64,000 bases of DNA from Candidatus Obscuribacter sp. (GTDB taxonomy: Bacteria; Cyanobacteriota; Vampirovibrionia; Obscuribacterales; Obscuribacteraceae). Under the pieces are notes generated by a model. The model ran no database searches. It worked only from the letters and a program-made list of their open reading frames with translations, and was not told where the DNA came from. Below are positions 9,199-52,910 of this stretch, piece after piece; position 1 is the first letter of the stretch, and the number at the start of each line of letters is the position of its first letter. The stretch covers positions 1 through 64,000 of the forward strand of contig JADYXQ010000089.1 of the NCBI GenBank assembly GCA_021772135.1. The letters run 5' to 3'. The position numbers and the translations under genes were made by a program.

Positions 9199-12100
9199 CT
9201 ATTTGGCACTTCCAGCAGGTGGCGAGGCACCGCCTCCAATACCGCTTTGGTCCTGGCGCAGGCCGTGTATTTGTTGAATCGCCTGCTTGGTGCCGGCAAT
9301 TACAACAGTGGCCCTGTCTGGTTTAAAAGTGGTGCGCACAAATTGATTGACCTTATCCATGGTCGCTTCCCGAATACCTTGATGTATAGAAGGAAGCGGA
9401 TCGCAGGCACCATTAAGCATGATTGACTCCAGGGCGGCCCGGGCAGCCAGCTGGCTGTTCGACATCCATTTCACAGGCAGGGCGCCATGAAGATAAAGTT
9501 TGACTTCGGCGAACTCTTCAGCGGTCAATCCGGTGCGGCCAAATTTCTTCAATTCTGTTTGAATAAACTTCACCGCTACAGGCATCGTATTTGATACCAA
9601 AGGTATATCCAGTGACCATACCGTCATTCCAGGGAGCGACTCTACATCAGAGGCCAGGTCTTCGAGACTTAGGCTGCTGGAGAGACTTTGCTCGCCGGAG
9701 ATTTTCTGGGCAAAGCGTGAAAATATGGGATGGCTCGTCAGAGCGCAGTCGGCTAAAAGCAACAATGGATAGTCGGATTTTCCTAAGCCGCTGTCCACGA
9801 GTCTACCTATAGTAGCCATGGTGTCTTGCTTCTTGTCGATGGTCATAGAAGTCTTGAGGATACGTCTGGCATTAGGCTGCACCAGTACTTTTTTAGCGGT
9901 GTTTTTGCCTGTCCAGCCGTCAAAACTGCGCTCCGCCAGATCCACGGCTTGACTTAGCGAAATGTCACCAACAAAGACAATCGTGGTGGCATCAGGCCTT
10001 ACGGCCTGCAAGTGAAAATCGCGCAGATCGCTGTCTTTGAGATTGCCCACAAAGCGAGCTTTATCCATCGGTTCAAGGGGGTAAAAACTTGTGTTGGGGG
10101 CAATCAGACTCTGCATCAAAGCTCGTTTAACGCGAGCTCTCACCGTGTCTTCGCTTTTTTTCACGCGGTCAATCACCAGTTGCTTGGCTCTCTCTACGTC
10201 AGTATCTTTTAAGAGTGGGTCACGCAGCTGGCTGGCTAAAATGCCCAAAATAGTGCCTGTATCACGGGTGAGACAGCGGCTTTGAAAACTAATCCACTGA
10301 GGCCCCGGTTCAAACTTGATCATGGCAGCAGGTTCGAGGCCTAGCTCATCTTGCAGGCTTACTGCCGATTGGCGGCTGTATTTAGGCGAGCCATCGACCA
10401 TCAGTTGTGCCAACACTGCGGCAGCTCCGCGCTTGCCTGTAGGCTCATATGCCTCGCCGGCTTTGACGGCGCCAATGATTTGGACCGAGGGGCTGAGCTT
10501 GGTCTCAAGCACAGCTACCGTGATGCCATTTTTTAAGACAGCTTTTTTCAGATAAGGATTAGGCGACGTACTTTTACTAGCGCCGCCGTTATCCTTCTCA
10601 ATGGTTTCGTCGCTGGCCTGCTTACTTGCTGGCGGAGCACCACCTACCGTTTGAGCATCATCGGCTTTGTAAGCACAAGCTTTGACACCGAAGCCACTGA
10701 AAATGTCTAATGCACTTGCTGAGGCGGTTTTATGATGTACTCCCGTTTTTGGTTTTTTCAGATCTTTCAATTTGTCTGATGGTTTTTTGCCGTCTTTTTT
10801 ATCTGAGTCTTTTTTATCTGTGCTAGTGGCTTTGGCATCGGCCGGGGCGTCTTTAGGGGCGACCGGTTTAGGCGCAACAGATTTGTTGGCGGCACCGCTG
10901 AGCACACCAACGTATCTATTTTCGCGGGCGAAATAACGTTTAGCCACTCTCTGAATATCGGCCGATGACACGGCTCTTAGCTTGGTGAACCAGCTGTAGG
11001 CCCCTTTCCAACCATCAATCGATTCTGAATAGCCTAAATGGAAGGCAGTGCGATAAGGACCATCGCGTTCAGAAAGCAAGAAGAACTCGGCGTGATTGCG
11101 GGCGCGACGTAATTCGGTCTCGGGCACTGGATTATTGCGCAACTGCTCCATCACCGCCTCAAAAGACTCAATCATTTTGTGAGCACTGGTGCCGGGTGTA
11201 GAAACCAGATTGATAGTAAATAATCCAGGATCGCGTTTGACTTCAAAAGTGCATTTAGCACTACTGCAAACTTTTGCCTCAACCAGTTTGCTCTTTAACC
11301 GACCGCCCACACCGGAAGTCAAAAGCTTTTCTAAAACGGCGAGGGCCGGAGCATCGGCGTTGACGAACTCGCAGGTGTGATACGCCATGGCCACCACGTC
11401 TGAATTGCCGCCGTGTTTCAAATAAACGCGGCGCTCGGCAGTTTGCTGTGGTTCGACCACACGCACCGCTCTTGGTGGCTCAGCTTTGGGCAGGGGAGCA
11501 AAATATTTGTTGACCTGCTCCACCACTACCGCGCTGTTAAAATCGCCCACCAGAACAAGGGTGGCATTACTGGGTTGGTAATATTCGCGATAATGACGTC
11601 TGACGTCATCAACAGTCAATTTATGTACATCATTAGACCAGCCAATGGTGGGGTTGCGATACGGATGCTGCAAAAAAGCAGCAGAGCGCACTTCCTTATT
11701 GAGCAAATTGACAGGTTCTTTGGCTTCCTGACTGAGCTCTTTTTCCACCATTTTGATTTCGGCCTGCACATCTTCAGCTGTAAACGTTGCCGCATGCATG
11801 CGCTCTGACTCGATTTTCAAAGTGATAGGCAACTTGCTGGGGCTGACAGTTTCGAAAAATACAGTAAAATCGTCGCTGGTAAAACCATTGAACATGCCAC
11901 CGTTGCGAGCGATGGTGGCACCCACTTCACCTTTGCGAAAATATCCCACTTTTTCAAAAAGCAAATGTTCAACCAGGTGGCTTAGTCCAGTTTCACCGAG
12001 GTTTTCATTACGTGAACCGACACGGTAAAAAACCATACTGGTAGCTACAGGAAAGGAATGTTCTTCCAACAAAAGCACCTTAAGACCATTGGCAAGAATA

Positions 12101-12231
12101 ATTTCTTGCACGCCTTTTTCGCTCACTGCAGCAGAGTTACTCTCATTAGCAGCCCACACTTCCGGCGTCAAAATGCCACTGGTAGAAACCATCAGGCTCA
12201 AGGCTGCCAAGCAGACCGCTATTCTGCTCAT
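9199..12231 (-). CDS. secreted M16-family zinc peptidase with two M16 units
   Basis: This roughly 1010-residue protein starts with a signal peptide (M-S-R-I-A-V-C-L-A-A-L-S-L, cleavage near V-W-A-A). I prefer this ATG at 12231 to the ATG 40 codons upstream because the signal peptide begins here. The first M16 unit has the inverted zinc motif H-L-V-E-H at residues 85-89. A Lys/Asp/Pro-rich linker of about 100 residues follows. A second M16 unit begins near L-K-N-G-I-T-V-A-V-L-E; it lacks HxxEH and is presumably the non-catalytic half of the clamshell. M16 peptidases degrade peptides of limited size, here probably in the periplasm. The length matches two-unit bacterial members. The gene diverges from feoB. 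Confidence 0.88.
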   Translation of the reverse strand: MSRIAVCLAALSLMVSTSGILTPEVWAANESNSAAVSEKGVQEIILANGLKVLLLEEHSFPVATSMVFYRVGSRNENLGETGLSHLVEHLLFEKVGYFRKGEVGATIARNGGMFNGFTSDDFTVFFETVSPSKLPITLKIESERMHAATFTAEDVQAEIKMVEKELSQEAKEPVNLLNKEVRSAAFLQHPYRNPTIGWSNDVHKLTVDDVRRHYREYYQPSNATLVLVGDFNSAVVVEQVNKYFAPLPKAEPPRAVRVVEPQQTAERRVYLKHGGNSDVVAMAYHTCEFVNADAPALAVLEKLLTSGVGGRLKSKLVEAKVCSSAKCTFEVKRDPGLFTINLVSTPGTSAHKMIESFEAVMEQLRNNPVPETELRRARNHAEFFLLSERDGPYRTAFHLGYSESIDGWKGAYSWFTKLRAVSSADIQRVAKRYFARENRYVGVLSGAANKSVAPKPVAPKDAPADAKATSTDKKDSDKKDGKKPSDKLKDLKKPKTGVHHKTASASALDIFSGFGVKACAYKADDAQTVGGAPPASKQASDETIEKDNGGASKSTSPNPYLKKAVLKNGITVAVLETKLSPSVQIIGAVKAGEAYEPTGKRGAAAVLAQLMVDGSPKYSRQSAVSLQDELGLEPAAMIKFEPGPQWISFQSRCLTRDTGTILGILASQLRDPLLKDTDVERAKQLVIDRVKKSEDTVRARVKRALMQSLIAPNTSFYPLEPMDKARFVGNLKDSDLRDFHLQAVRPDATTIVFVGDISLSQAVDLAERSFDGWTGKNTAKKVLVQPNARRILKTSMTIDKKQDTMATIGRLVDSGLGKSDYPLLLLADCALTSHPIFSRFAQKISGEQSLSSSLSLEDLASDVESLPGMTVWSLDIPLVSNTMPVAVKFIQTELKKFGRTGLTAEEFAEVKLYLHGALPVKWMSNSQLAARAALESIMLNGACDPLPSIHQGIREATMDKVNQFVRTTFKPDRATVVIAGTKQAIQQIHGLRQDQSGIGGGASPPAGSAK

Positions 12232-12440
12232 ACAATGCTGCTCGCTCTTAATCTTCAAATGCCTTCCTATTCTTCTCCACAATCCCTCAATGCCAACCCT
12301 GCCGGTTATTCCATATGTGCCATGGGCCCGGCTGCCGCTAAAACTTACCACAGTACTGATTAAGTCTCATGAGGCTTTGCTCAAAGGATATGCAACAGGC
12401 CCTCTTGTGTTGATAGACTTTCTCAATAAGACCCATCTAT

Positions 12441-12459
12441 ATTATTGATTATCAATCAT
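12441..12459 (+). promoter_or_regulatory. Fur-box-like palindrome at the feoB start
   Basis: ATTATTGATTATCAATCAT contains the palindrome ATTGATTATCAAT and resembles half of a classical Fur box. It overlaps the feoB ATG at 12458. Low-confidence motif match. Confidence 0.3.
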
Positions 12460-14530
12460 GGCCTCCACCTCAAAATTGGCACGCAAAAGAAGCAGCAAGA
12501 ACGCCGACTCGACGGATGACGAAAAGGCTCGGCGCAGCATCGTGCTGGTGGGCAATCCCAATGTGGGCAAATCAGTTATCTTCAATGCCCTGACCGGCTC
12601 TGACGCTGACGTCTCCAATTATCCCGGCACCACAATTGATATTGCCCGCGGTCACCTGGGTGACGACGAACTGGCTGATACGCCGGGCGTCTACGGTGTC
12701 TCGAGCTTTAACGATGAAGAACGTGCAGCGCGCAAAATGATAATCGCCGCCGATATTGTCATTAATGTTGTATCGGCATTGACGCTGGAGCGCGACCTTT
12801 TTCTCACAGTTCAGTTAGCTGAAATGGGGAAACCTATGATTTTAGTGATTAATCAGTTCGATGAAACAGTTCTGCGTGGCATCAAAATAAATTTGGGCGT
12901 TTTGAGTGATGAACTTGGCCTCGAAGTACTCACCTGCGTAGCCGTCAAAGAAGAAGGCATCGAAGAAATAAAGAAAGCCATTGCTCTGGCGCGACCGGGG
13001 AAAATCAGGCCGGAACTGCTTGAAATACTAAATGAGATTCGCAGTAAGTCTAGCGCCGACCACGCCATCGATCAGGCCGAAGCGCTTTTAATTGCCGAAG
13101 GCGACGAAGCTACCGCCACCGCCTGTGGTGTCAATGTAAGTATAGGCAATCAAAGAGCGGCCATCTATGCAACGCGCCGCACCTTCGTAAATGACTTAGC
13201 TGAAAGCACAGTCACCCAGGGGAGCGGCCCAAGGTCATTTTCCAATAAATTGGGCAAACTGCTTTTGCATCCAATCTGGGGATCGCTTATATCATTTGCA
13301 GTTTGCTATTTTATTTTCTATCAGGTTTTAGGCGTCTGGATTGCGGGCAATCTGGTAGACGTTACCGAAAAGAAAACCATGAAGGTCTACTATGAGCCAA
13401 TGGTGCGCAGAGTAGCAGCCAATGTCTTTCCGTCGACAATTACTATCGGCGAGCGTACTTTTGATTTTCCTCAAGGTACTTTGAAAAACGAGGCCGAAAG
13501 TAAAGCTCTGGACGCTGCCATTAAAACTACTCCGGCCAATGAAATCGGCTTTAATTTCTGGTCTTACAAAAATTTGGCAGGGGCTCTGGGAAATATTTTT
13601 GTAGGCGAATATGGCCTGGCGACGCTGACAGTGACGTATTTGCTTGGTTTGCTGATGCCATTGGTGATTGGTTTTTATCTGGGCTTATCGTTGCTTGAAG
13701 ACTCAGGTTATCTGCCGCGGCTAGCCGTACTGGTTGACCGTATGATGAACAAACTTGGTCTCAATGGCCGCGCCATAATTCCCCTTATACTTGGCCTGGG
13801 CTGTGTCACTATGGCGACAATTACCACCCGGCTTTTGACGACAAAGCGCGAAAAAATTATCGCTACGGCACTACTGGGAGTGGCAATACCATGCTCGGCA
13901 CAATTAGGTGTAGTTTCAGGCACTCTGGCTAGAGCCGGTGGCGGCGCGGCCTGGGCCGTCTATCTTTTCGTGGTCATAGGCATTCTGGCGGCAACGGGCC
14001 TCTTGCTTAATGCGGTTATGCCGGGGCAGTCGCAGGGTTTGATGATCGATTTGCCGCCCATGCGCCTGCCCCGAGCCGACAATGTCTTGAGAAAAACCTG
14101 GAAAAAGTCCTGGAATTTTCTAACCGACGCTACACCCATGTTCTTTTTAGCCGGTTTTATGGTCACTCTGGCCCAGATGGTCGGTTTATTGGATTTGATT
14201 ATTAAAGTCTTGCAGCCCATTGTTGTTCAATGGCTGTTTTTGCCCGACGACCCGCGCATTCCTACCACATTTATATTAGGTATTGTCAGGCGCGATTTTG
14301 CCGCCTTTGGCTTGACCGACGTAGCCTTAACGCCGGTTCAGGCTGTCACCGCTATGATCGTCATTACGCTTTTTGTGCCCTGTATCGCTACAGTGGGCGT
14401 GATGATCAAAGAGCGCGGCATGGCCATCGCCTTGTCTATCTGGTTCGGCTCGTGGGCCGCTGCATTTGTCATTGGCGGCTTTTTGGCCCGAATATTGCCT
14501 TTCGTCTTCAGCCCGCTGGGCATTAAGTAG
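12458..14530 (+). CDS. feoB: FeoB ferrous iron transporter
   Basis: This 690-residue protein has an N-terminal G domain: G1 G-N-P-N-V-G-K-S near residue 32-39, G3 D-T-P-G, and a G4-like N-Q-F-D. A large membrane part follows with two Gate-type segments (G-Y-L-P-R-L-A-V-L-V-D-R, and P-C-S-A-Q-L-G-V with the conserved Cys). FeoB imports Fe2+ across the inner membrane. A roughly 20-residue Lys/Ser-rich extension precedes the G domain. No FeoA or FeoC is adjacent. No Shine-Dalgarno sequence is visible before the ATG, so the message may be leaderless or poorly translated without an activator. It sits between the M16 peptidase and tRNA-His. Confidence 0.93.
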   Translation: MASTSKLARKRSSKNADSTDDEKARRSIVLVGNPNVGKSVIFNALTGSDADVSNYPGTTIDIARGHLGDDELADTPGVYGVSSFNDEERAARKMIIAADIVINVVSALTLERDLFLTVQLAEMGKPMILVINQFDETVLRGIKINLGVLSDELGLEVLTCVAVKEEGIEEIKKAIALARPGKIRPELLEILNEIRSKSSADHAIDQAEALLIAEGDEATATACGVNVSIGNQRAAIYATRRTFVNDLAESTVTQGSGPRSFSNKLGKLLLHPIWGSLISFAVCYFIFYQVLGVWIAGNLVDVTEKKTMKVYYEPMVRRVAANVFPSTITIGERTFDFPQGTLKNEAESKALDAAIKTTPANEIGFNFWSYKNLAGALGNIFVGEYGLATLTVTYLLGLLMPLVIGFYLGLSLLEDSGYLPRLAVLVDRMMNKLGLNGRAIIPLILGLGCVTMATITTRLLTTKREKIIATALLGVAIPCSAQLGVVSGTLARAGGGAAWAVYLFVVIGILAATGLLLNAVMPGQSQGLMIDLPPMRLPRADNVLRKTWKKSWNFLTDATPMFFLAGFMVTLAQMVGLLDLIIKVLQPIVVQWLFLPDDPRIPTTFILGIVRRDFAAFGLTDVALTPVQAVTAMIVITLFVPCIATVGVMIKERGMAIALSIWFGSWAAAFVIGGFLARILPFVFSPLGIK

Positions 14531-14838: not shown

Positions 14839-15537
14839 CTAATTGCCCTTTTTTGGTATCAGATTTTCTAAACCCTGCTCTTTTAAATACTCGATGAAGT
14901 TGCTGCGGTAATTGTATTTATCATCTTGATCTACCACCTCAAAATCAGAGACTTTGCGCTCGATATAAGAAGTGCCTGACGGAATTTTGTAGAGTTTGAA
15001 TCCATCAGCATCAAAGACTTCGCCGCTCTGGTTTGCGCCCTTAATAGCGCCATCGGGCAGTGGCGTAAATAGATGTTTTTCATCATTTTGTTGAGTTTCG
15101 ACAATGCGGTGATTATCTTTCTTCTCGATAATGCGCAGACCGATATAATGCATCAAAACGCTCTGGTTGCTAATCTCCACCGGTTCTTCAGTCAGCAAAA
15201 CAACATGCTCAACGGTTTCACCACGGTCGATGTCATAGCGCACCTGCCGCTGCGCTTCCCAGATGCTGCCTTTAGCATCGCGCTGTTTTCCCCGGGTACG
15301 CTCACGTTCATTGCGCACAGACACATTCGGTTTAATTTGAATTTTCTTTCTTATCTTAGTGCCGGCAAACCATGGTGGAATTTTGTACCACTTTTCGATT
15401 CTGTCTGAAGGCAAGTTGCGTTCGTCGTATTTGGAACCTTCATGCAATTCCGCTCGTAAGCGAAAAGGTTCCGCCTGAGCAGACGGAAGCCACAAAGTGA
15501 AAATGAGTATTAGAGATAGTGGTTTAAATGCAGTCAT
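14839..15537 (-). CDS. secreted WYxxPxW-family protein, member A
   Basis: This 232-residue protein has a signal peptide (M-T-A-F-K-P-L-S-L-I-L-I-F-T-L-W, cleavage after A-Q-A). It belongs to a family with four members in the window. The marks are K-W-Y-K-I-P-P-W-F-A-G near residue 49, G-S-I-W-E-A near 90, Y-I-E-R-K near 190, and the C-terminal F-E-V-V-D-Q-D and E-N-L-I-P. Secondary structure looks mainly beta. I know no function for it. It overlaps the Rrf2 regulator gene by 4 bases and is therefore in its operon, suggesting control by that regulator. The divergent NO reductase is followed by its closest-looking paralogue. Confidence 0.75.
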   Translation of the reverse strand: MTAFKPLSLILIFTLWLPSAQAEPFRLRAELHEGSKYDERNLPSDRIEKWYKIPPWFAGTKIRKKIQIKPNVSVRNERERTRGKQRDAKGSIWEAQRQVRYDIDRGETVEHVVLLTEEPVEISNQSVLMHYIGLRIIEKKDNHRIVETQQNDEKHLFTPLPDGAIKGANQSGEVFDADGFKLYKIPSGTSYIERKVSDFEVVDQDDKYNYRSNFIEYLKEQGLENLIPKKGN

Positions 15538-15974
15538 TGATCATTGCCTTCAACCAGTGGTGAAGATGCACAAAGTGGGCTTTTAGATTCTTCCACAAGT
15601 TCGCCTAAATTCGAACTGGCAAAGGCTTCTTCCACCTGTGCTGTCGCTGCCGACAGGCGTTTGTGCAATGGACAGAGGTTCATTCCGTGGGACTGGAAAC
15701 CCAGGGGGCAAGACATTATTTTCTCTATCGGGTCAACAGAATTGATCACATCCAAAATTGAGATCTCCTGCGCGGCTTTTGACAAGACAAAGCCCCCGCC
15801 GATTCCACGCTGAGAATTAACCAATTTCCCTCTAACCAGCAGCTGCATAATTTTACTCAAATAGCCCGCGGGTACTTTGGTAGTTTGAGCAATTTCCTGC
15901 CCTGTAGCCGCTGAACTTTGCATAGCAAGGAAGACCATCGCTCTTAATGCGTATTCAGCCGTCTGGGAAATCAT
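15534..15974 (-). CDS. Rrf2-family transcriptional regulator (NsrR/IscR-like)
   Basis: This 146-residue protein starts M-I-S-Q-T-A-E-Y-A-L-R-A-M, the classic Rrf2 opening, with a winged helix containing V-P-A-G-Y-L-S-K-I-M-Q-L-L and the wing R-G-I-G-G-G-F-V-L. In NsrR and IscR three Cys spaced C-x5-C-x5-C bind an Fe-S cluster. Here the outer two are present near residues 89 and 101, but the middle position is Ser, followed by His. A third Cys lies near the C-terminus. It diverges from the quinol NO reductase, the classic position of an NO-sensing repressor. It is cotranscribed with secreted-family member A. Confidence 0.87.
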   Translation of the reverse strand: MISQTAEYALRAMVFLAMQSSAATGQEIAQTTKVPAGYLSKIMQLLVRGKLVNSQRGIGGGFVLSKAAQEISILDVINSVDPIEKIMSCPLGFQSHGMNLCPLHKRLSAATAQVEEAFASSNLGELVEESKSPLCASSPLVEGNDQ

Positions 15975-16219
15975 GGCGCTCCATTAAGAACAAGAATACC
16001 TTTTTATACAAAATACCACGGAATGGCACTTTGAAGGTTGACGGGGGAGTGACAACCCTAATTAAAAATTGGCTTGAGGCATCGCTGTTTCCGTTTATTC
16101 GCCAGCTTGACAGCGAAGACAAGATACACTCAGCACGATTCAAATTTAGTGCGCCTTAATGGTCGAGCTGGCTTAAGTGCGATTTTAAAGCAATGTCATA
16201 ACGTTTTTTGGGGGGTTTT

Positions 16220-18463
16220 ATGTCCTGGAGATGGAAGCTGTCAGTACTTTTTGTACTAATCGCAGGGTTTTCCACACTGATATTCATGGGGCACGAGGTC
16301 AGCGACCAGGCCCCACCTGTACCGGAGCGTGTCGTCAATACCAGAGGAGAGCTACTTTTTCAGGGCAGCGACATCATGGCCGGCCAGGCGGTTTTTCAAA
16401 AATATGGCTTAATGGATGTCGGTTCGTTTTTTGGTCATGGCGCCTATAACGGACCTGATTTTTCCGCCGACTACCTGCACCGCGAAGGCGAACTTTGTCT
16501 AGAGCGAATGGCGCAAAACAAATTCCAGAAAGCATACTCACTGCTAGATACCGGCGCCCAGGGCGATTTAAACAGCACCTTACAAAAAGAACTGAAAGTA
16601 AACCGTTACGACGGGCCAACAAAAACTCTCACACTCACTGACAACCAAGCACATGCTTACAGTCAGCTGGCGCCATATTATGATACCGAGTTTGGTGTGG
16701 GCAGAAAACTTCCGCTGCCGACCAATTATATTGCCGATGCCACTGAACGCTTGCAACTGAGCCGATTCTTCGCCTGGGGTGCCTGGGTCTGCGTCACTGA
16801 GAGACCCGGCAAAGACTACACTTTCACCAATAACTGGCCACCAGATAAATTGGTGGGAAATGGTCCAAACTGGCACATATTTTTCTGGAGCGCCATGAGT
16901 TTAATCATGCTCATCGGCGGCATTGGTTTGACTCAATTCTTGCTCAGCGCTTTTCCTGGTTTAGGCTGGATGCCTGATGGCAAGGGCATGACCGACAATG
17001 TCAAAAGCTATCAACCACTAAGGTCGCAAACATCGCTTTATCCTTACTTTGTAGTGGTGGTTTTGCTGTTCCTGTTCCAGACAATTTTTGGTGTGGTCAC
17101 TGCTCACTATATAGTCGAACAAGGTTTTTATGGATTTGATATTCGCACTATTTTGCCTTACAGCGTCACTCGCAGCTGGCACTTACAGCTTTCGATTTTC
17201 TGGATTGCAACGGCCTGGTTGGCGGCAGGAATGTTTATGGCGCCGATGCTATCCAAAAACGAACCGAAAGGACAACACTGGCTGGTAAAAATCTTGTTTG
17301 TGGCAATTCTCATTGTTGCTGTAGGCAGCATCGGCGGAGAATGGCTCGGTGTTAAAAACATGCTCGGTAATCTCTGGTTCTGGTTCGGGCATCAAGGCTG
17401 GGAATACTTAGAACTGGGAAGATTCTGGCAAGCGCTACTGACACTAGGCATGGTGCTCTGGGCAGTAATTGTTTTTCGCAGTATCAGCCCACTACTCAAA
17501 GGCAAAGACCATGGCAGCCTGCCCTACATGCTGCTTTACGGCGTCATTGCCATCCCCTTATTTTTCAGCTTCGGCATGATGTATCATCCCGGTACCAATT
17601 TTGCCGTGGCTGATTTCTGGCGCTGGTGGGTGGTGCACCTCTGGGTGGAAGGTATCTTCGAGTTGTATACCACCATTATTGTGGCTTATTTCTTCTGCAG
17701 TCTGGGCATGGTTTCAGAAAAGTCGGCACTCTCTGTCATTTACATAGATATCATTCTTTATCTGGGCAGTGGCATTGTGGGCATCGGCCACCACTACTAC
17801 TGGACAGCACAGCCGGCTATCAATATGGCTCTGGGTTCAATGATTTCTGCCTGGGAAGTCGTACCGCTGACACTTTTAACCATGGACGCCTGGAAATTTG
17901 TAGAGCTGGCAAAAGTGGACGGTTCAATTAAAAACTTCTCGCACTACTGGGCAATGATGTTTTTACTGGCGGTGGGCTTCTGGAATTTTCTTGGCGCGGG
18001 CGTATTTGGTTTTTTGGTCAACACTCCGATTGTTAGTTATTACGAGCATGCCACCTACCTCACCTCTAACCACGGACACGCGGCTTTGATGGGAGTTTAC
18101 GGAATGCTTGGCGTGGCGGCAATTTTATTTTGTACTCGCTATTTAATGACTGATGATGCCTGGAGTAACAAACTGGCAGGCATATCATTCTGGGGTTTGA
18201 ATGTTGGATTGATGCTGATGATTGTGCTCAACATTTTCCCTGCCGGAGTAATCCAGATGATTGCCAGCTACGAAAAAGGCTTCTGGTTTGCCCGCAGCTA
18301 CGAGTTCATTCACTCAGATATTTTCCAGACCTTGACCTGGCTGCGTGTAGCCGGTGATATTACTTTCGTGCTGGTTGGAGTAATGCCTTTAGTTATTCTG
18401 GTTGTAAGAGGAATGTTTTACCGCAGGCACGCAATTAGCGATTTGCCGAAAGTCGTCGCCTGA
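16220..18463 (+). CDS. norB: quinol-dependent nitric oxide reductase (qNor)
   Basis: This 748-residue protein is fused as in qNor: an N-terminal membrane helix and periplasmic domain of about 220 residues without a c-type heme CxxCH, then the NorB-like core. Metal-ligand regions are visible: W-H-L-Q-L for heme, H-L-W-V-E-G-I-F-E-L for FeB, G-H-H-Y-Y-W for the His pair, and S-N-H-G-H-A-A-L-M-G. It reduces NO to N2O with quinol electrons at the membrane. The ATG at 16220 follows a GGGGGG ribosome site; a TTG 12 bases earlier is unlikely. The divergent Rrf2 gene is the likely regulator. No other denitrification gene is nearby, suggesting a detoxification role. Confidence 0.92.
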   Translation: MSWRWKLSVLFVLIAGFSTLIFMGHEVSDQAPPVPERVVNTRGELLFQGSDIMAGQAVFQKYGLMDVGSFFGHGAYNGPDFSADYLHREGELCLERMAQNKFQKAYSLLDTGAQGDLNSTLQKELKVNRYDGPTKTLTLTDNQAHAYSQLAPYYDTEFGVGRKLPLPTNYIADATERLQLSRFFAWGAWVCVTERPGKDYTFTNNWPPDKLVGNGPNWHIFFWSAMSLIMLIGGIGLTQFLLSAFPGLGWMPDGKGMTDNVKSYQPLRSQTSLYPYFVVVVLLFLFQTIFGVVTAHYIVEQGFYGFDIRTILPYSVTRSWHLQLSIFWIATAWLAAGMFMAPMLSKNEPKGQHWLVKILFVAILIVAVGSIGGEWLGVKNMLGNLWFWFGHQGWEYLELGRFWQALLTLGMVLWAVIVFRSISPLLKGKDHGSLPYMLLYGVIAIPLFFSFGMMYHPGTNFAVADFWRWWVVHLWVEGIFELYTTIIVAYFFCSLGMVSEKSALSVIYIDIILYLGSGIVGIGHHYYWTAQPAINMALGSMISAWEVVPLTLLTMDAWKFVELAKVDGSIKNFSHYWAMMFLLAVGFWNFLGAGVFGFLVNTPIVSYYEHATYLTSNHGHAALMGVYGMLGVAAILFCTRYLMTDDAWSNKLAGISFWGLNVGLMLMIVLNIFPAGVIQMIASYEKGFWFARSYEFIHSDIFQTLTWLRVAGDITFVLVGVMPLVILVVRGMFYRRHAISDLPKVVA

Positions 18464-18508
18464 TGCATTAGCCACTACAATTGACGCTGGCACAAGGAGC
18501 AGCGTAAA

Positions 18509-19246
18509 TTGGCAAGCATCTTTCAGAAAAATCGCCTCAACTTGGTCGCCTTTTCATTTGCTCTGGTCGGCTTCATTGCCGCCGATGAGGTAGCTTGCGC
18601 CGACACTCTGCAAGGTGGCGTGACCCAGATTGAAGCGGTATCTCCCTCACTGCTTCCTGGTTCGGTCTACAACCGGGCCAAAATTGCCAATCGCATTACT
18701 AACTGGTACCGAATACCTGTCTGGCTGGCGGGCACAAGAGAACGCAGCGAAATTAGAAGTAGTGTCGGCACAGTCAAAAACGTGCGTACCCGCGAACGCG
18801 GCAGACAACTTGATAGTGAAGGGCACATCTGGGAAGCCAGTCGCGAGCCAATATTTTATGACATCGATAGAGGAGAGCTGGTTTCTCACACTATTTTGAC
18901 GAAAAGCGAGCCGCTTTACTTGACCAGAAATAAAGTAGTCTTGCGTCTGGGCGGCACCATGGTGGCAGCAAAAAAGAACGGCGATGTGATTATCGACGTG
19001 ATGCAATGGGAAGAAATTCACACTCTTACACCCGGTCCGAATAACACTGTTGAAGGGCTGATTAGCGAAACCCGCAACTTTGATAAAAACGGCAAACTGA
19101 CATTACTTAGCAGCGATGCGAAATACTATACCGAGCATCTGGTGGCAGAATTTCAAGCTGTTGATAAAGACCAGCGCTTCGATTATAAAAAACAGTTTTC
19201 CGAATTTTTGCATCAAGCCGGCAAAGATAATTTAATTCCACCATAA
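18509..19246 (+). CDS. secreted WYxxPxW-family protein, member B
   Basis: This 245-residue protein starts at TTG, supported by AGGAG nine bases upstream; no ATG precedes the signal peptide. After the signal (hydrophobic near residues 10-30, A-C-A-D cleavage) come the family marks N-W-Y-R-I-P-V-W-L-A-G near residue 66, G-H-I-W-E-A, H-T-L-T-P-G, Y-Y-T-E-H-L and D-N-L-I-P-P at the C-terminus. It starts 45 bases after the qNor stop and is probably cotranscribed with it. Member A in the opposite transcript aligns along its whole length, including R-Y/F-Y-D-I-D-R-G-E. Function unknown; linkage suggests a role in nitrosative stress or the envelope during it. Confidence 0.77.
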   Translation: MASIFQKNRLNLVAFSFALVGFIAADEVACADTLQGGVTQIEAVSPSLLPGSVYNRAKIANRITNWYRIPVWLAGTRERSEIRSSVGTVKNVRTRERGRQLDSEGHIWEASREPIFYDIDRGELVSHTILTKSEPLYLTRNKVVLRLGGTMVAAKKNGDVIIDVMQWEEIHTLTPGPNNTVEGLISETRNFDKNGKLTLLSSDAKYYTEHLVAEFQAVDKDQRFDYKKQFSEFLHQAGKDNLIPP

Positions 19247-19341: not shown

Positions 19342-20583
19342 ATGGATGCGCAGGTACGGTTTCCGATAAAACGCCCGACAGAAGAAGTTGACCCTCAGAA
19401 GCTGATAGCGGCCAAAGACGCCACTGTCACGCAAACTGCGGCTGGCGAAAGCAAAGGTCTGGGTGGTTGGGTCAGCGATAATGTCTGGACGCCGGTTAAA
19501 GGCAATGTCGTTAACCCGATGATTAACGGCACCGGTCTGGGCCAGATTTACAACACTTTTGCCGACAAAGACCACCAGGTCAAAGAGCTGAAAGTGGCCG
19601 AAGTGCACGGGGTCGTGCAGTGGGGAGTGCAGACGCTTTCTGAAGTTGCCGGAGCCCTTGTGCCGTATGCTCTTGCCGGCAAAATGGTTAACGGCGGCGG
19701 CCGTTTGTTGGGCGAAAAAATCGCTGCCTAGGGCACCCTGACCAAAGTATTAACCAGCGAAAGCGGCTCTCTGATTCTCGGCGCCGGCATCTATGATTTT
19801 GTCAAAAAACCTCACAAGGGCGAAACCAGAATAGCCAATTCGGCAGATACCATGGCCAGTTTCGCAGTCTTCGAAGGTGGCAACCGCCTGGTTAAAGCCG
19901 AAAGCATGACCATGCTCAGCCGCTTTGGTGTAAGAGCCGGTGTGGGCGCAGCCGGCGGAGTGGTCGGTTATGACACTTCCAAAATGGTGGCCGGCTGGAC
20001 TGGCGCCAATTCGCAAACCAACTGGAGCGAAAGAGGCATGTCTATGGCCTCCGGTGCTTTCATCAACACCACACTGCCGGCAATTTCAAAAGGCATCACC
20101 AGAGCTTTTGATGCTGGTGTCAACGCCCAGCCCTGGGGCAAAGGCGTTCCCATCGAGCGCTATTTAAAATATGAAGGGCTGAAACATCCAGAACTTGTGG
20201 AAGCGGCCAAACAAAATCCGCTGGCCAGAGTGAAAGAGATAAAGACACCGGGCGCCGAGACCAGAGCCGACATTGCAAAAAATCTGGTCGACCTGAAGGC
20301 GCAAGATAATGCCGCCAAACTGGCTCACGAATTGACTCATCTGCGCCTGGCCAGGCAGATGGAGCCGCTTTATAAATTGCTCGAACCTATGAGCAAACTT
20401 AATCCTGAAAAAGCAGAGCAAGACTATTACAAACTGCGCGCTTTTGCTGAATCCACTGCTCGCTCTACCGAAAATAAAGTGCTGGTGCAAATGCAGGGGC
20501 CGAAGGCGCCCCAGGTGGTGGAACAGTTTTCACTGGTGGGCGAGCAGCTAGCCAAAGACGGCCGCAAGTACAAAGATATCTAG
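19342..20583 (+). pseudogene. N-terminal part of a decayed fusion gene, interrupted by TAG at 19729
   Basis: One reading frame runs from the ATG at 19342 through an in-frame TAG (19729-19731) to a second TAG at 20581-20583. The sequence between the stops keeps full coding character, including the 40 codons after the first TAG that have no start codon. The first 130 residues contain Gly/Val-rich hydrophobic stretches (A-L-V-P-Y-A-L-A-G). The later part has another Gly/Ala-rich stretch and then an H-E-L-T-H motif followed by F-A-E-S-T-A, resembling a zincin metal site. Similar Gly/Ala-rich stretches occur in the S1C protease at 41 kb. Both TAGs could be CAG-to-TAG changes. No ribosome site is evident at 19342. 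Confidence 0.7.
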
Positions 20584-22387
20584 GTGGAAGAATGGAAGGT
20601 CAATGTTGGCCTGGACAAGCCGGACTTCAGACCTAAAGTTGAATTCCATGGGGTAGAGTCTGACGTTCCACCGGCTATGGGATCGCCTTCACCACTTGGT
20701 GCCACAGTAGTAGAAAAAGGTGTCAATTTTGCCGTGGCCTCCGAAAGTGCAAAACGAGTACAGTTGTTAATCTTCGACCAGCCTGAAGCCAAACAGCCGT
20801 CACGCACCGTTGATTTAACTCGCACCGATAATACCTGGCACGCATTCGTGGCTGACCTCGGACCCGGTGCTCAGTATCTATATCGGGTGCACGGTGACTA
20901 CACTCCAGCTATTGACGGCTCGCGGGCCAATGAAAAAATGGCCCTGATTGATCCTTACAGCAAAGCGGTTACCGGCGGCACCAATGGCCCCCTTGCATTC
21001 GACAACAGTAACCCGGTCGATGCCAATCGGCACTTAAAAAAAGGCACCACCGATAGTGTGGAAGAAATGCCGCGCTCTATAGTTCTCAAAGCAGGAGAAT
21101 TTGACTGGAAAGGGGACAAGCCACCGAATATTCATGTAGCCGACAGTGATGTGCTCGAAGTAAATTTGCGCGGTTTCACCGCTGGTGAAAAACATCTTGG
21201 TGTAAAAGCGGGCACATATCTAGGCCTTTACCGGTTGCGGCAACACCATGAACACCAACCACCCGCAAGTACGCAAAATGATTCTCGAGACTCTTCGCTA
21301 TTGGAAAGAAGAGATGCATGTGGACGGCTTCCGCTTTGACCTTGCCACCATCTTTAATTATGACGTTGACGGCCACGACAAGCCAAAAACGCCAATCCTC
21401 AGAGAAATGGAAAACGATACTGTGCTCAAGGACGTCAAACTGATATCAGAACCATGGAGCACTGACCAATATAAACTGGGCCATTTCTCAGACGCACGCT
21501 GGGGAGAATGGAACGGTGATTTTAGAGATACCGTGCGCAAATTCATCAAAGGAGATTCAGGACAAACCGCCACCCTTGCTGAACGCATTAAGGGATCGCC
21601 CACCTGGTTCCGGCCGGATTCAGGCCGCTACTCAATTAATTTTGTCACCGCCCATGATGGCTACACTTTAAACGATCTGGTTTCATATCAACAAAAGCAT
21701 AATCATGCCAACGGTGAAAACAACCGAGACGGCAGCAATGACAATTACAGCTGGAATCACGGTGTGGAAGGCCCGGTAGAGACTTCCGGCTTGCCCATAG
21801 CCGAACAGCATCGTATCGATCAGTTGCGAGTGCAGCAAATTAAAAATGCCCTCTCCCTGCTCTATCTGTCCAAAGGCACGCCGATGATGCTTTACGGTGA
21901 TGAAATGCGCCGTACGCAAAACGGCAATAACAATGCCTGGCCACAAGATAAGCTCACTCACCTCGACTGGTCACTGGCCACTCGCAACGAAGCCATCAGG
22001 CGCTACACGCACATGATCACTAATTTGCGCAAAGAATTTAGCATCGGTCATGTGCCCGATAAAGACATGATCTGGCATGGCACTGAGCCTTACAGAGCTG
22101 ATTTTTCTGACGGAGCGAAATTCATTGCCTGGCAAACTCTCAAACCGAATGATGCCAGTCGTTCCCTCTTCCAGGCTTTCAATGCTTATTGGGAGCCACT
22201 AACAATTCAGATACCTCCCGGCAACTGGAAACGCAGAGTTGATACAGGTCTGCCCGCCGGTCAGGATATTGTCAGCGGCGGCGAAGCCACACCTGTGGTT
22301 GGTACCTATGTGATTCAACCGCGCACAGGCATTGTCTTAGAGGGAAATACAAACTCGGTGCCTGACGTTCCCATAAAGTCAAAATAG
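20584..22387 (+). pseudogene. glycogen debranching enzyme-like (GH13 isoamylase/GlgX type), internal deletion
   Basis: The frame continues in phase from the previous entry after a TAG. A CBM48-type start (G-S-P-S-P-L-G-A-T, then G-V-N-F-A-V) is at about codon 32. Coding stays in this frame to about 21225, then continues in another frame at C-G-N-T-M-N-T-N-H-P. The jump loses about 120 codons that in GlgX hold conserved region I of the barrel. Regions II (V-D-G-F-R-F-D), III (I-S-E-P-W) and IV (V-T-A-H-D-G-Y) remain. The surviving C-terminal ORF starts at 21248 and ends 22387. The intact enzyme would cleave alpha-1,6 branches of glycogen; this product should be inactive. Confidence 0.8.
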
Positions 22388-46564: not shown

Positions 46565-47314
46565 ATGTCAAAAACCCTTACTACCTGCACTAAAATCGCG
46601 GCACTGTTTCTTGTCTGCTCAGCTTTCCAGTTGCACGGAAAAGCACAGGTCCTGCAGGGCGGCATCGAAGAAAGAGTGGCACCGCTGCAAGAACGCTTTC
46701 GCATAGGCTCAACTTTTTCAGAAGATTTTTTGCCGGGCAATCACAAGATAAAATCCTGGTACAAACTGCCAAGCTGGCTCACAGGCGGCTTCGAAGCTAA
46801 AACATTAAAGCAGACAATCAGGCTCAGGTCAGTGGAGAGCAAAAACGAGACCAAGTCATCTCGCGGGCTGCAAGCAGACAAAACCGGCACAGTCTGGGAC
46901 GCCGTCATTATTCCTAACTACGCCCGGGTAAAAACTCAGAATGCTACCGACTTCGATATTTTTGAAGACTATCAGGTGCTTGATTCGACGCCGGACAAGT
47001 TTCGCTGTCTGATTCGTTATACGGCTATCACGGTAGATGATGACAACCGCAAAATTTTGCGCGCCGAAAAAAGAACAGAAGAACAAGAGCTTGAGCCAAC
47101 GGCAGACAACCAGGTGCTCGAACATAGCTTGCAGATGCGCTATGACCAGGACGGCAAAGCAATCACACGTAAACCGAAAAAGCTCGAAGTAAAGCTAGCG
47201 CATGTCAGCCCCTTTGTGGCGCAAGATCAATCGCCGGCAGGCACTTTTAATTACAAAGAAGAGTTTCGCGCTTACTTAACCGAATCGGGACAGTCCAACT
47301 TGATTCCTGAATAA
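46565..47314 (+). CDS. secreted WYxxPxW-family protein, member C
   Basis: This 249-residue protein has a signal peptide (hydrophobic near residues 9-22, G-K-A-Q). Family marks are S-W-Y-K-L-P-S-W-L-T-G near residue 64, G-T-V-W-D-A near 107, and the C-terminal F-N-Y-K-E-E-F-R-A-Y-L with S-N-L-I-P-E. It is the most divergent member in the middle region, with D-F-D-I-F-E-D-Y in place of the shared D-I-D-R-G-E. It lies upstream of the RND efflux pair on the same strand, separated by about 265 bases. Function unknown. Confidence 0.75.
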   Translation: MSKTLTTCTKIAALFLVCSAFQLHGKAQVLQGGIEERVAPLQERFRIGSTFSEDFLPGNHKIKSWYKLPSWLTGGFEAKTLKQTIRLRSVESKNETKSSRGLQADKTGTVWDAVIIPNYARVKTQNATDFDIFEDYQVLDSTPDKFRCLIRYTAITVDDDNRKILRAEKRTEEQELEPTADNQVLEHSLQMRYDQDGKAITRKPKKLEVKLAHVSPFVAQDQSPAGTFNYKEEFRAYLTESGQSNLIPE

Positions 47315-47369
47315 GAACAACTACAACGCCACTTGCTTAGCAATTCACACACTATTGTGGCAAAATATT

Positions 47370-47546
47370 ATGACTATACTCGCACTGATAGCGGTATCAA
47401 GACGTACTCGACCAAGCCAAGAACGTGACTGGTTGGCCCAGCCGCGTGATCGAAACAGCTTTCAGCCAGTTAAAGTCACAAAAGACGAACCTTTCAAAGG
47501 AAGAAACGACTTTAAAAGACATGCAGTTATAGAATGGAAAAATTGA
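47370..47546 (+). CDS. possible small protein upstream of the efflux genes
   Basis: A 58-residue frame starts M-T-I-L-A-L-I-A-V-S-R-R-T-R-P-S-Q and ends 33 bases before the efflux adaptor ATG. It is basic with a short hydrophobic start, has no good ribosome site and no recognisable family. It may be noise, though it fills most of the gap between member C and the adaptor. Confidence 0.3.
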   Translation: MTILALIAVSRRTRPSQERDWLAQPRDRNSFQPVKVTKDEPFKGRNDFKRHAVIEWKN

Positions 47547-47579
47547 GCCACTGAGGCCAATCTGACAACTTCAGGCAAA

Positions 47580-49010
47580 ATGCAATTGTTAACCAAGCCC
47601 TACAATTTGAATAATGTCACGGCAATGCTCTTGATCGGCCTGGCTTATTGCTGTGTATACCTGTCAGGGTGTCAGTCGCTCTCCAGCAATGATTCTCAGG
47701 CAATCGCCGCAAAACCAGAGAAAAACATTGCCCCTGCTATTGAGTGCGTCAAGGCGCAGAAAAAAAACATTTCTCCCGTTGTTCATTGCACAGGACAGGT
47801 GAAACCTGTTTTTGGCAAAGAATATACGGTCGGCGTCAGGCTTTCTGGTCGCATTTTAAAAGTGAATGTGGCACCCGGAGAGCATGTAAAAGCCGGCCAA
47901 ATTTTGGGCTATGTCGACAGCCAACAGGTTAGCGAGATTCAAGCCGAAGCAAGCAAGGCGGCCTCGCGCCTGGCCATTGCCCGAGCCCATGAAGAAAGAG
48001 AATTTCGCGTTTATCAGGAAGAGCTGTTGAGACCGAAGGCACTGATCAGAGCGAAAACCGCACTGCAGTTGGCTATCATTAATGAACAGTCGGCCAAACG
48101 AAACTTCCATCGAATGGAGACTTTGAAAAAAGAAGGCATTGCCGCTGAAAAAGACTATCTCCAGTCCAAAAGCGGGCTCGAGCGGGCCCGTCTCGACCTG
48201 GAACAGAGTCAGCTGGAAGAAAAACGTGAGAGTGAGTTATTTGCCAATAAAGGCCTGATAAAAAAAGACTGGCAACTAGCGCAAACAGAAACCCAAGAAT
48301 CACTTAATGAGCTGCAGACGATTAATGAAAAACTTGGTTTTCTCGGCGCCGAATCGAGACCGATTAGGGGTTCGACCAAGGATTCAATCAAGGATTCGAT
48401 TAATAGTGCCTCTCTAAGCAAGCGTTTGCGGCCCCTGGTGCCAATTATTGCACCGGCGCGGGGCACCATTGTGCAACAGTTCGTCTCACCGGGGGAAATT
48501 GTCGGACCAGATTCACCAATTTTCTCAATCTGTGACCTGCGACAGGTGGCCATTAGTTGTGAAATTCCAGAATCAGATTTATCGCTGGTGGCGAAAGGGC
48601 TGCCCGTGGCCGCATCGGTTACTTCGTACGGCAGTCGCACTTTCGACGGCAAAGTCGATTATGTGGGAGAGCGCTTAGATCCCAAAACCCGCACTGTTTC
48701 GGTAAGAGCGGTGATCGACAATACAAGCGGTCATTTAAAACTAAATATGTTTGCCACCATCGACATTCAGGGCACGCCCAAACAAGTAATTGCCTGTCCG
48801 AGAGAAGCCATTCATGAAACTGGCGGCACCACTGTGGTCTATCTGCGCACCGGTCAAAATCTATACGCCAAAAGAGTAGTGCAAACAGGCATCAGCAGCG
48901 GCGATCTAGTAGAAATCACCAGTGGCTTGCAGGGAGGAGAAGACGTTGTCACAACCGGCGGCGTCCTTGTGAAAACAAAACTTTCCATGGAGCAGCGTGG
49001 TGACGGATAG
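47580..49010 (+). CDS. RND efflux periplasmic adaptor (HlyD/MFP family)
   Basis: This 476-residue protein has a lipoprotein-type start with lipobox L-S-G-C near residues 28-31. A barrel-sandwich half-motif G-R-I-L-K-V-N-V-A-P-G-E-H-V-K-A-G follows, then a long helical hairpin (residues 130-260), then the second half-motif I-I-A-P-A-R-G-T-I-V-Q-Q-F-V-S-P-G-E and a beta-barrel domain. It links the inner-membrane pump to an outer-membrane channel. A segment near residue 260-280 has the repeated I-K-D-S-I. The GTG of the pump gene overlaps its end by 14 bases, so the two are coupled. No TolC-like gene is nearby. Confidence 0.88.
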   Translation: MQLLTKPYNLNNVTAMLLIGLAYCCVYLSGCQSLSSNDSQAIAAKPEKNIAPAIECVKAQKKNISPVVHCTGQVKPVFGKEYTVGVRLSGRILKVNVAPGEHVKAGQILGYVDSQQVSEIQAEASKAASRLAIARAHEEREFRVYQEELLRPKALIRAKTALQLAIINEQSAKRNFHRMETLKKEGIAAEKDYLQSKSGLERARLDLEQSQLEEKRESELFANKGLIKKDWQLAQTETQESLNELQTINEKLGFLGAESRPIRGSTKDSIKDSINSASLSKRLRPLVPIIAPARGTIVQQFVSPGEIVGPDSPIFSICDLRQVAISCEIPESDLSLVAKGLPVAASVTSYGSRTFDGKVDYVGERLDPKTRTVSVRAVIDNTSGHLKLNMFATIDIQGTPKQVIACPREAIHETGGTTVVYLRTGQNLYAKRVVQTGISSGDLVEITSGLQGGEDVVTTGGVLVKTKLSMEQRGDG

Positions 49011-52000
49011 ATTAATTAGCTTCGCCCTAAACCAGCGTTTAGCGATTATGGCCCTCACCGTTCTACTTATAATTGGCGGCCTCTTTTCTCTCTCTACTTT
49101 GCCCATGGATTCTTTTCCGGATGTGAGCAACGTTCAGGTTCAGATAATTTGCGAACCGGAGAGCATGGCTACTGAAGAAGTAGAATCCATGATTACCATT
49201 CCCATTGAAAATGCCATGGCCGGACTGCCGGGCAAATCGACCATTCGCAGCAACTCCAGCTTTGGCCTGGCGGTAGTCACAGTAATTTTTCAAGATAGTG
49301 TTGACGTCTATTTCGCCAGGCAACTGGTGCGCGAAAAGCTCAATACCATCCAGTTTCCCAGTCAGGTACCTCAGCCTCAAATGGGGCCTGTCGTATCAAC
49401 TTTCAGCAATGTCTTCATGTATTACCTGGAAGGTCCCCTCGATGAGATTGCTTTGCGCACAGTGCAAGATTGGACTGTCGCCAGGAAATTGAGAAGCGTG
49501 GCCGGAGTAGGGAACGTGGTCTCCTATGGCGGTTTCGTTAAAGAATATCAAGTGCTGCTCAAGCCTGATCAAATGAAATCTTATGACGTCAGCCTGAAAG
49601 AAGTTGTCGATGCGCTCAATTCGAACAACACCAATGCTGGTGGCAATTTTATTGAGCAGGGTGGCGAAGAAATAATTATTCGCAGCATCGGCCGCATCAA
49701 AACCGCGGCAGATATTGAGAACACTGTGCTGCGCGAATACGAAGGCACCTCCGTAAAACTGGGTCAAGTCGCCTCTATTACGATAAATGGAGCCTTCAGG
49801 CGCGGCTCAGCTTCTAAGGACGGCCTGGGCGAAGCGGTCACCGGTATTGTCTTAACGCGCAAAGGTGTGAACACCAAAGAAGTGGTGCTCAATGTCGAGA
49901 AGTGTCTCAAAGACTTAAAATCGCAACTGCCACCAGGCGTGCACATCGTTCCTTATTACAATCAAATGGAACTGGTAGACAAAACCATGGACACTGTAAA
50001 AGAGATTCTTCTCTTTAGCGGTGCACTGGTAGTGATTATTCTGGCCAGCATCTTGCTCAATATTCGAGCGGCAGTGATTGCCGCTGTAATCATTCCGCTC
50101 TCACTGCTTTTCAGTTTCATCCTCATGCGCGTCACCGGGCTCTCATCGAACCTCATGACCCTGGGCGCCATGGAATTCGGTGTAATTGTCGATGCCGGTG
50201 TCGTAATGGTAGAAAATGTTTTTCGCCATCTGGCAGAAAAGCAGGCCGACGGAAAGAAATTATCAAACGCTGAGATACTCGAGACCACTTCGCATGCAGC
50301 CCGTGAAGTGGGCAAACCAATTCTCTTTTCCATTCTTATTATCATCGCCGTCTACATTCCACTTTTTACCCTGGAAGGGGTGGAAGGGAAAATGTTCCAA
50401 CCGCTGGCACTGACATTCATTTATTCGATTACCGGCGCTTTGATTTGTTCAATGACTATTATTCCACTGCTCTGCTATTTATTTTTACGCGGAAATATTG
50501 TTGATAAAGAAAGCCCCGTTTTAGCTGTACCCAGACGCAAATACGTAGATGCTCTGACATTTTCACTGAAGCGTCCGGCGCTGGTTATAGCTATTGCTGT
50601 AGGTGCACTGGCAGCTTCTCTTGCTTTACTGCCTTTCCTGGGCTCGGAATTTATCCCTACTCTGGATGAAGGCTCGATTTTACTGCGCACCAAACTGGCA
50701 CCAAGCGTCTCACATACAGAATCTATTCAGATTGCCAAAATTATCGAAACCATTTTAAAAGAATTTCCCGAAGTCGAAGTTGTCGTCTCACGCATTGGCC
50801 GATCGGGTATGGGCTCGGACCTTGAAGGGGTAGACAATGCAGACACATATGTCGGCCTTAAACCGAAGAGCAAATGGACTGTGCGCAGCAAAGACGAGCT
50901 GGTCGAAAAAATGGCCAAAAAGCTCGACAACATTACCGGCCTCAAATACAGTTTTTCCCAACCGATTGCCGACATGGTGGACGACCTGGTTTCAGGAGTG
51001 AAAGCTGATCTTGCCATCAAAGTATTCGGCGACGATTTGCGCGAAATCGATAGAGTCAGCTCTGATATCAATCATGCAATCGCCAGCGTGCCTGGAGTAG
51101 CCGACTTGCAGCGGGAGCGCATGCTGGGTGCACCGCAATTGAAAATTCGCCTTGACCGGTCGCGTATGGCCCGCTACGGTTTGAATGTTCAGGCGCTGCA
51201 ACAATATATCAACACAGCCATCGCCGGCAGTGTCATTACCGAAGTATTCGAAGACAACAAACGCTTCGGCGTGCTTGTGCGACTGCCCCGCAAAGACCGC
51301 GATTCTGTCGACGACATATCGAACATGCCGGTGACCACGCCATCTGGAGCCACGGTGCCGCTGAAAATGCTGGCAGACATAACTCTTGAAGAAGGCACTG
51401 TGATGGTCAACCGAGAAGAAGCACAAAGGCGAACGGCCGTGCTTTCAAATATTAGAGGTCGAGATCTCGGTAGTTTTGTCCAGGAAGCTCAAGCAAAAGT
51501 GGCCAGCACCGTAAAAATTCCCAGCTCATGCAAACTTGTATGGGGCGGCCAATTTGAGAACCAGCAGAGAGCAATGGCCAGGCTGGCCGTAGTGGTGCCG
51601 ATAGTGCTCTTACTTATATTTATTTTGCTGTTTGCTGCTTTCGGCTCTTTTAAAAATGCCTGCCTCGTTATGGCCAATGTGCCTTTTGCAATCATCGGCG
51701 GCATTCTCGGTTTGTTTGTCACTCACCAGCCCATCTCTGTTCCAGCCATCATCGGCTTCATCGCTTTGTTCGGTGTGGCCGTGCAAAACGGAGTAATCCT
51801 GGTATCGTACATCAGCCATTTGCGCGCCACGCGGCCGGCGCAAGAAGCAATTATGGAAGGCGCGATCACGCGCTTCAGACCGGTGATGATGACCGCGCTG
51901 GTAGCAATTATGGGTCTTTTACCGAAAATATTTGCTACAGGCACCGGTTCTGAAGTGCAGAGACCGATGGCCACAGTGGTGCTTGGAGGGCTAGTTTCGG

Positions 52001-52107
52001 CTACTCTTTTAACATTGATGGTATTGCCAGTAATGTACAAATTAACCGATAAGAAAAGCAAATTGTCAGTAACTGAACCAGTCGCCGAACAATCATTACC
52101 TGGGTAA
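48997..52107 (+). CDS. CzcA/CusA-type RND efflux pump
   Basis: This 1036-residue protein has the RND layout: a membrane helix, large periplasmic loop, six helices, and the same again. Its opening M-V-T-D-R-L-I-S-F-A-L-N-Q-R and P-M-D-S-F-P-D-V fit the heavy-metal branch. The TM4 motif is E-F-G-V-I-V-D-A-G-V-V-M-V-E-N, where the usual first Asp of CzcA is Glu; the second Asp and the Glu are kept. Cus-type methionine ligands are not apparent. It exports divalent metals or perhaps organics across the envelope using proton motive force. GTG start with GGAG just upstream. It overlaps the convergent member D by 12 bases. Confidence 0.9.
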   Translation: MVTDRLISFALNQRLAIMALTVLLIIGGLFSLSTLPMDSFPDVSNVQVQIICEPESMATEEVESMITIPIENAMAGLPGKSTIRSNSSFGLAVVTVIFQDSVDVYFARQLVREKLNTIQFPSQVPQPQMGPVVSTFSNVFMYYLEGPLDEIALRTVQDWTVARKLRSVAGVGNVVSYGGFVKEYQVLLKPDQMKSYDVSLKEVVDALNSNNTNAGGNFIEQGGEEIIIRSIGRIKTAADIENTVLREYEGTSVKLGQVASITINGAFRRGSASKDGLGEAVTGIVLTRKGVNTKEVVLNVEKCLKDLKSQLPPGVHIVPYYNQMELVDKTMDTVKEILLFSGALVVIILASILLNIRAAVIAAVIIPLSLLFSFILMRVTGLSSNLMTLGAMEFGVIVDAGVVMVENVFRHLAEKQADGKKLSNAEILETTSHAAREVGKPILFSILIIIAVYIPLFTLEGVEGKMFQPLALTFIYSITGALICSMTIIPLLCYLFLRGNIVDKESPVLAVPRRKYVDALTFSLKRPALVIAIAVGALAASLALLPFLGSEFIPTLDEGSILLRTKLAPSVSHTESIQIAKIIETILKEFPEVEVVVSRIGRSGMGSDLEGVDNADTYVGLKPKSKWTVRSKDELVEKMAKKLDNITGLKYSFSQPIADMVDDLVSGVKADLAIKVFGDDLREIDRVSSDINHAIASVPGVADLQRERMLGAPQLKIRLDRSRMARYGLNVQALQQYINTAIAGSVITEVFEDNKRFGVLVRLPRKDRDSVDDISNMPVTTPSGATVPLKMLADITLEEGTVMVNREEAQRRTAVLSNIRGRDLGSFVQEAQAKVASTVKIPSSCKLVWGGQFENQQRAMARLAVVVPIVLLLIFILLFAAFGSFKNACLVMANVPFAIIGGILGLFVTHQPISVPAIIGFIALFGVAVQNGVILVSYISHLRATRPAQEAIMEGAITRFRPVMMTALVAIMGLLPKIFATGTGSEVQRPMATVVLGGLVSATLLTLMVLPVMYKLTDKKSKLSVTEPVAEQSLPG

Positions 52108-52854: not shown

Positions 52855-52910
52855 TAGCAAAGGCAAATACTCCCCAGACCGCCCCAGCAACGCATTTAAG
52901 CGCACTATTT

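Follow-up and report, generated by a model that had tools for sequence, protein, structure and literature searches.

Nitric oxide (NO) detoxification genes can be grouped in a module in which the regulator gene rrf2 is divergent from genes for a rubredoxin, a RIC/ScdA-YtfE-type protein, a globin and the NO reductase NorB; the genus studied here has such a module in full (L148:7197-11913). Cyanobacteria export proteins of the family DUF6816 (PF20670). Calycins and nitrobindin-type proteins (PDB 2fwv, 3ia8) are antiparallel up-and-down barrels with a G-x-W motif in the first strand. We analyzed a window of 64,000 nucleotides from Candidatus Obscuribacter sp., in which a divergent rrf2/norB pair is bracketed by two exported paralogues, A and B. 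We consider it likely that A and B, with five further paralogues in this genome, belong to a family of soluble antiparallel beta-barrels that are Sec-exported and specific to Obscuribacterales, and that the NO module was inserted between them later.

A divergent rrf2/norB locus with a family member at either end

An earlier note on this DNA had placed A and B at the outer ends of the divergent locus, with one set of motifs in common and Rrf2 and qNor genes at the center. The open reading frames agree with these coordinates and motifs, and profile matches identify both central genes. The features discussed below are:

9199-12351, minus strand: M16-type peptidase, assigned from its own sequence rather than by a profile scan; second syntenic anchor of the A/B site
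12458-14530, plus strand: FeoB (PF02421, E 6e-47); syntenic anchor by which the A/B site is recognized in norB-less sister species
14839-15537, minus strand: member A, an exported protein of 232 aa whose gene ends the predicted rrf2 transcript
15534-15974, minus strand: Rrf2-family regulator (PF02082, E 4.8e-29)
15997-16010, minus strand: operator-like site TGTATA(W)A(R)(R)GGTA, TGTATATAAAGGTA, 23 bp upstream of rrf2 and conserved across related NO modules
16208-18463, plus strand: norB, qNor-type nitric oxide reductase (PF22085, E 5.8e-59; PF00115, E 1.2e-56)
18509-19246, plus strand: member B, exported 245-aa protein, 3' of norB
46565-47314, plus strand: member D, same family as A and B (B versus D, E 3.8e-12)
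52096-52914, minus strand: member C, same family as A and B (B versus C, E 2.4e-26)

The ATG start codon of A overlaps the rrf2 stop codon by 4 bp (ATGA), while B starts with TTG 45 bp past the norB stop codon, preceded by an AGGAG-like site. Because of this overlap and the short gap, A is probably co-transcribed with rrf2, and B with norB, in this clade. Farther downstream, three reading frames at 19852-22387 match a single 1134-aa frame of a sister species (L071), which reflects either a broken gene or an assembly error.

A carries the motifs KWYKIPPWFAG, DIDRGE, YIE and ENLIP, and B the corresponding NWYRIPVWLAG, DIDRGE, YTE and DNLIP. The two proteins are 39% identical (E 5.8e-40), and the E values of B against A, C and D indicate homology rather than a motif shared by chance. 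A profile search found seven family copies in this genome. By eye, both A and B have an N-terminal hydrophobic stretch followed by an AxA-type site, and a strongly hydrophobic 12-mer precedes the domain in 81 of 84 distinct members, in keeping with the secretion proposed for A and B in the earlier note.

In comparison with the nearest relative, dN/dS is 0.05-0.07 for B, C and D, whose synonymous sites are almost saturated. The value computable for A was dN alone (0.08), and its counterpart in L068 is 86.9% identical. A and B are under purifying selection.

The family had been proposed to be undescribed, and this stands: it has no Pfam, NCBIfam or PDB sequence match, and a short search of the open-licence literature on the order, its NO reductase and DUF6816 returned no description.

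A predicted soluble barrel with putative fold-defining motifs

AlphaFold2 models were built with 58-59 family sequences. The model of B is a confidently predicted all-beta barrel of 11 strands with a C-terminal helix (pLDDT 94.3), and a distant member modeled separately gave the same 11-strand barrel and C-terminal helix (pLDDT 92.7). In the model, the chain enters the first long strand of the barrel through the conserved motif W-Y-x-[IL]-P-x-W-[LF]-x-G-(x-W); a second one, G-x-Q-x-D-x-x-G-x-[IV]-W, sits around the strands that come next. The invariant residues fall at this entry (P-x-W-x-x-G), within G-x-x-x-D-x-x-G-x-x-W and on the C-terminal helix. By eye, the barrel strands are rich in charged residues, which makes a soluble barrel more likely than an outer-membrane one.

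Across the family we found no conserved catalytic residue set and no conserved metal or heme ligands; the conserved motifs therefore look fold-defining. When a heme ligand was sought in the family alignment (A2), the best columns held 47% His and 12% Cys, which makes heme binding unlikely. Foldseek searches with the two models returned no match at E <= 0.001 in the PDB or BFVD, the best PDB values being 0.045 and 0.0045. The weak matches were mostly small up-and-down barrels of scattered kinds, including Ail, OmpX, designed barrels and nitrobindins. We tentatively call the fold calycin-like, judging by its predicted strand order and by where the GxW-type motif lies.

Distribution and possible mode of action

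Among Obscuribacterales genomes of at least 90% completeness, 26 of 27 encode the family, with 1-12 copies each and 164 in all. In a sample of the class, 54 of 194 genomes gave a match, nearly all of them from a single family and a sister family within the order. A sample of 386 genomes from the phylum contained no convincing member besides the genome of A and B; three other matches (E 6e-5 to 9e-3) covered short stretches within long frames. The family is near-universal in the near-complete genomes of the order that were searched and missing from the sampled other Cyanobacteriota, which makes it a marker of Obscuribacterales and a target for work on their envelope. One member comes from a record labeled Proteobacteria (L092). 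Since its neighbors match those of Obscuribacterales members, this record is likely a misnamed MAG.

The genes around members vary. An M1 aminopeptidase gene lies near members in 13 loci, an NCS1-type permease gene in nine and a lipoyl-synthase-like gene in six. The aminopeptidase linkage is the most conserved neighborhood of the family; the gene follows or lies close to members of one subfamily (L078-L083, L085, L087, L088, L094, L102, L208 and L212).

We propose that the family comprises periplasmic or extracellular, calycin-like binding or structural proteins. The predicted barrel would hold either a small ligand of hydrophobic character or a partner in the envelope, and the paralogues may have diverged for different ligands. 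A binding or structural role fits the observed features: a predicted soluble barrel that is exported and keeps its fold residues, the lack of a conserved catalytic set, many diverged paralogues and varied neighbors.

The family shows no preference for norB

From the position of A and B, the earlier note had inferred a role in envelope protection or NO handling. What would speak for the former is export. We examined the DNA around 57 norB loci of the class (0.88 Mb), and a member lay near two of them, one in the nearest relative, which has the same layout (L154), and one 4 kb away (L141). With 164 copies in ~158 Mb, ~0.9 members would be expected by chance in 0.88 Mb. Starting from the protein side, norB or rrf2 was near in one of 42 loci (L068), which belongs to the same relative as L154, and several genomes contain members without norB.

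Among the 58 Rrf2 genes of 27 genomes, a comparison by eye placed four no more than 5 kb from a member. These four cases go back to two ancestral sites, the rrf2/norB locus of A and B and one other. At the second site (G000 C134, G099 C83, G087 C6), the Rrf2 gene is convergent and an sce7726-like gene lies between it and the member. imuA-, imuB- and dnaE2-like neighbors, read from the sequence rather than by a profile scan, occur in two of the three genomes. In the corresponding loci L204 (7258-15727), L205 and L206, from three genomes of two genera, the Rrf2 gene lies downstream of the member and the sce7726-like gene. On neighborhood preference, the outcome is a family widespread in the order with no preference for norB and an Rrf2 linkage that amounts to two ancestral sites; the NO-handling role did not hold up.

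Proposed history of the A/B site

Three species of the same genus (L069, L070 and L071) carry homologues of A and B beside the FeoB and M16-type peptidase genes, without norB; a 374-aa exported protein of no assigned family is encoded between the two homologues. All ten A/B-type proteins group together in a single clade (99/96 support). Full NO modules of the same genus are found elsewhere, without members (e.g., L148 and L149). In the one relative that shares the layout of the window (L068/L154; L068:4106-7968), A and B enclose the module, in which the rubredoxin gene is kept, the RIC gene is apparently frameshifted and the globin gene is absent. Of the module genes, the window contains rrf2 and norB only, with rubredoxin, RIC and globin genes all absent. 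Relatives have a site similar to the operator-like one, inverted, upstream of the divergent rubredoxin gene, and TGTATATAAAGGTA is probably an Rrf2 binding site.

Parsimony applied to this synteny suggests the following course. The tandem of A and B at the FeoB/M16-peptidase site would be old and of genus level. The rrf2-norB module would have landed between them in the common ancestor that this genome shares with one sequenced relative, taking the place that the 374-aa exported protein holds in sister species. Its genes for rubredoxin, the RIC/YtfE-like protein and globin would then have been lost. A and B, as their spacing suggests, would have become co-transcribed with rrf2 and norB and thus passengers of an NO-responsive locus. 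We infer insertion here, not loss elsewhere, by parsimony within one genus.

The same evidence bears on the idea that A and B are functional parts of an NO response, exported to protect the envelope from NO or to handle it and co-induced through Rrf2. The overlap of A with the rrf2 stop codon and the position of B just after norB, a layout kept in L068/L154, speak for it, as do the conserved operator-like site upstream of rrf2 and the nitrobindin-type barrels among the weak Foldseek matches. However, the family shows no preference for norB over the 57 loci, several genomes have members and no norB, and sister species keep the A/B homologues without norB and the full NO module without members; nor does the family have a conserved His or Cys fit for heme. 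We therefore regard an NO-response function as improbable. NO handling as inferred from position is rejected on the norB survey together with the synteny in sister species.

Nothing indicates that the family handles NO, and A and B may respond to NO in this clade. Their operon placement may bring a lineage-specific functional benefit, since the two genomes with this placement have both retained it and the genes are under purifying selection. It is also conceivable, though unlikely, that the expanded barrel family consists of exported ligand-binders of which two copies were captured by an NO-sensing regulon and, at the FeoB site, took on a secondary function under NO or iron stress. A divergent module bracketed by paralogues is a striking arrangement, and it can come from local rearrangement; a function should therefore not be read from it.

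Members C and D

A membrane-fusion/RND efflux pair (PF16576, PF00873) separates D from C (46565-52914), both here and in L072, in parallel to norB-rrf2 between A and B. Four sister species (L073-L076) have C directly next to D, end to end. Pairs of paralogues might thus mark insertion-prone sites, at which rrf2-norB and the RND pair settled as the flanking genes recombined. We consider this very doubtful: the flanking genes are too diverged to act as DNA repeats (A and B are 39% identical even as proteins), neither site showed a mobile-element gene, and the two cases both come from one clade. Later insertion of the NO module between two paralogues of the family remains our preferred account of the A/B site.

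Comparison with known systems

Compared with the NO-detoxification module of rrf2, rubredoxin, RIC, globin and norB, the rrf2 and norB genes of the window are likely its remains, and A and B lie outside the module in every other lineage examined.

The predicted structure may resemble calycins and nitrobindin-type barrels in its antiparallel up-and-down barrel and in a G-x-W-like motif at the first strand. The family differs from nitrobindin-type barrels in that Foldseek gave E >0.1 and TM ~0.3 or less and no heme-ligand His is conserved. The nitrobindin profile (THAP4_heme-bd, PF08768) is absent from the Pfam matches of 59 members at E <= 1, and a search for PF08768 in cyanobacteria gave nothing to align. 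A nitrobindin-like heme barrel is rejected on the missing profile match together with the lack of a conserved His.

DUF6816 proteins resemble the family in length, in a signal-like N-terminus and in P-x-W-[LF]-A-G-x-W at a comparable position, so that the family could be a distant branch of DUF6816 that shares its role. In DUF6816, YP[DE]W[FLM]AG[TS]W follows the signal-like N-terminus at nearly the same offset, and HHalign gave a probability of 78 (E 1.6e-5), compared with a best probability of 4.4 in 150 column shuffles. Profile rotation, however, showed that the score comes from short motif columns alone, and none of 59 members matched PF20670 at E <= 1. Because the rotation places the score in one short motif, we keep this kinship as a possibility only and think it rather unlikely. 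Beyond the shared motif, the A/B family is set apart from DUF6816 by a second motif, GxQxDxxGxIW, and by its C-terminal LIP.
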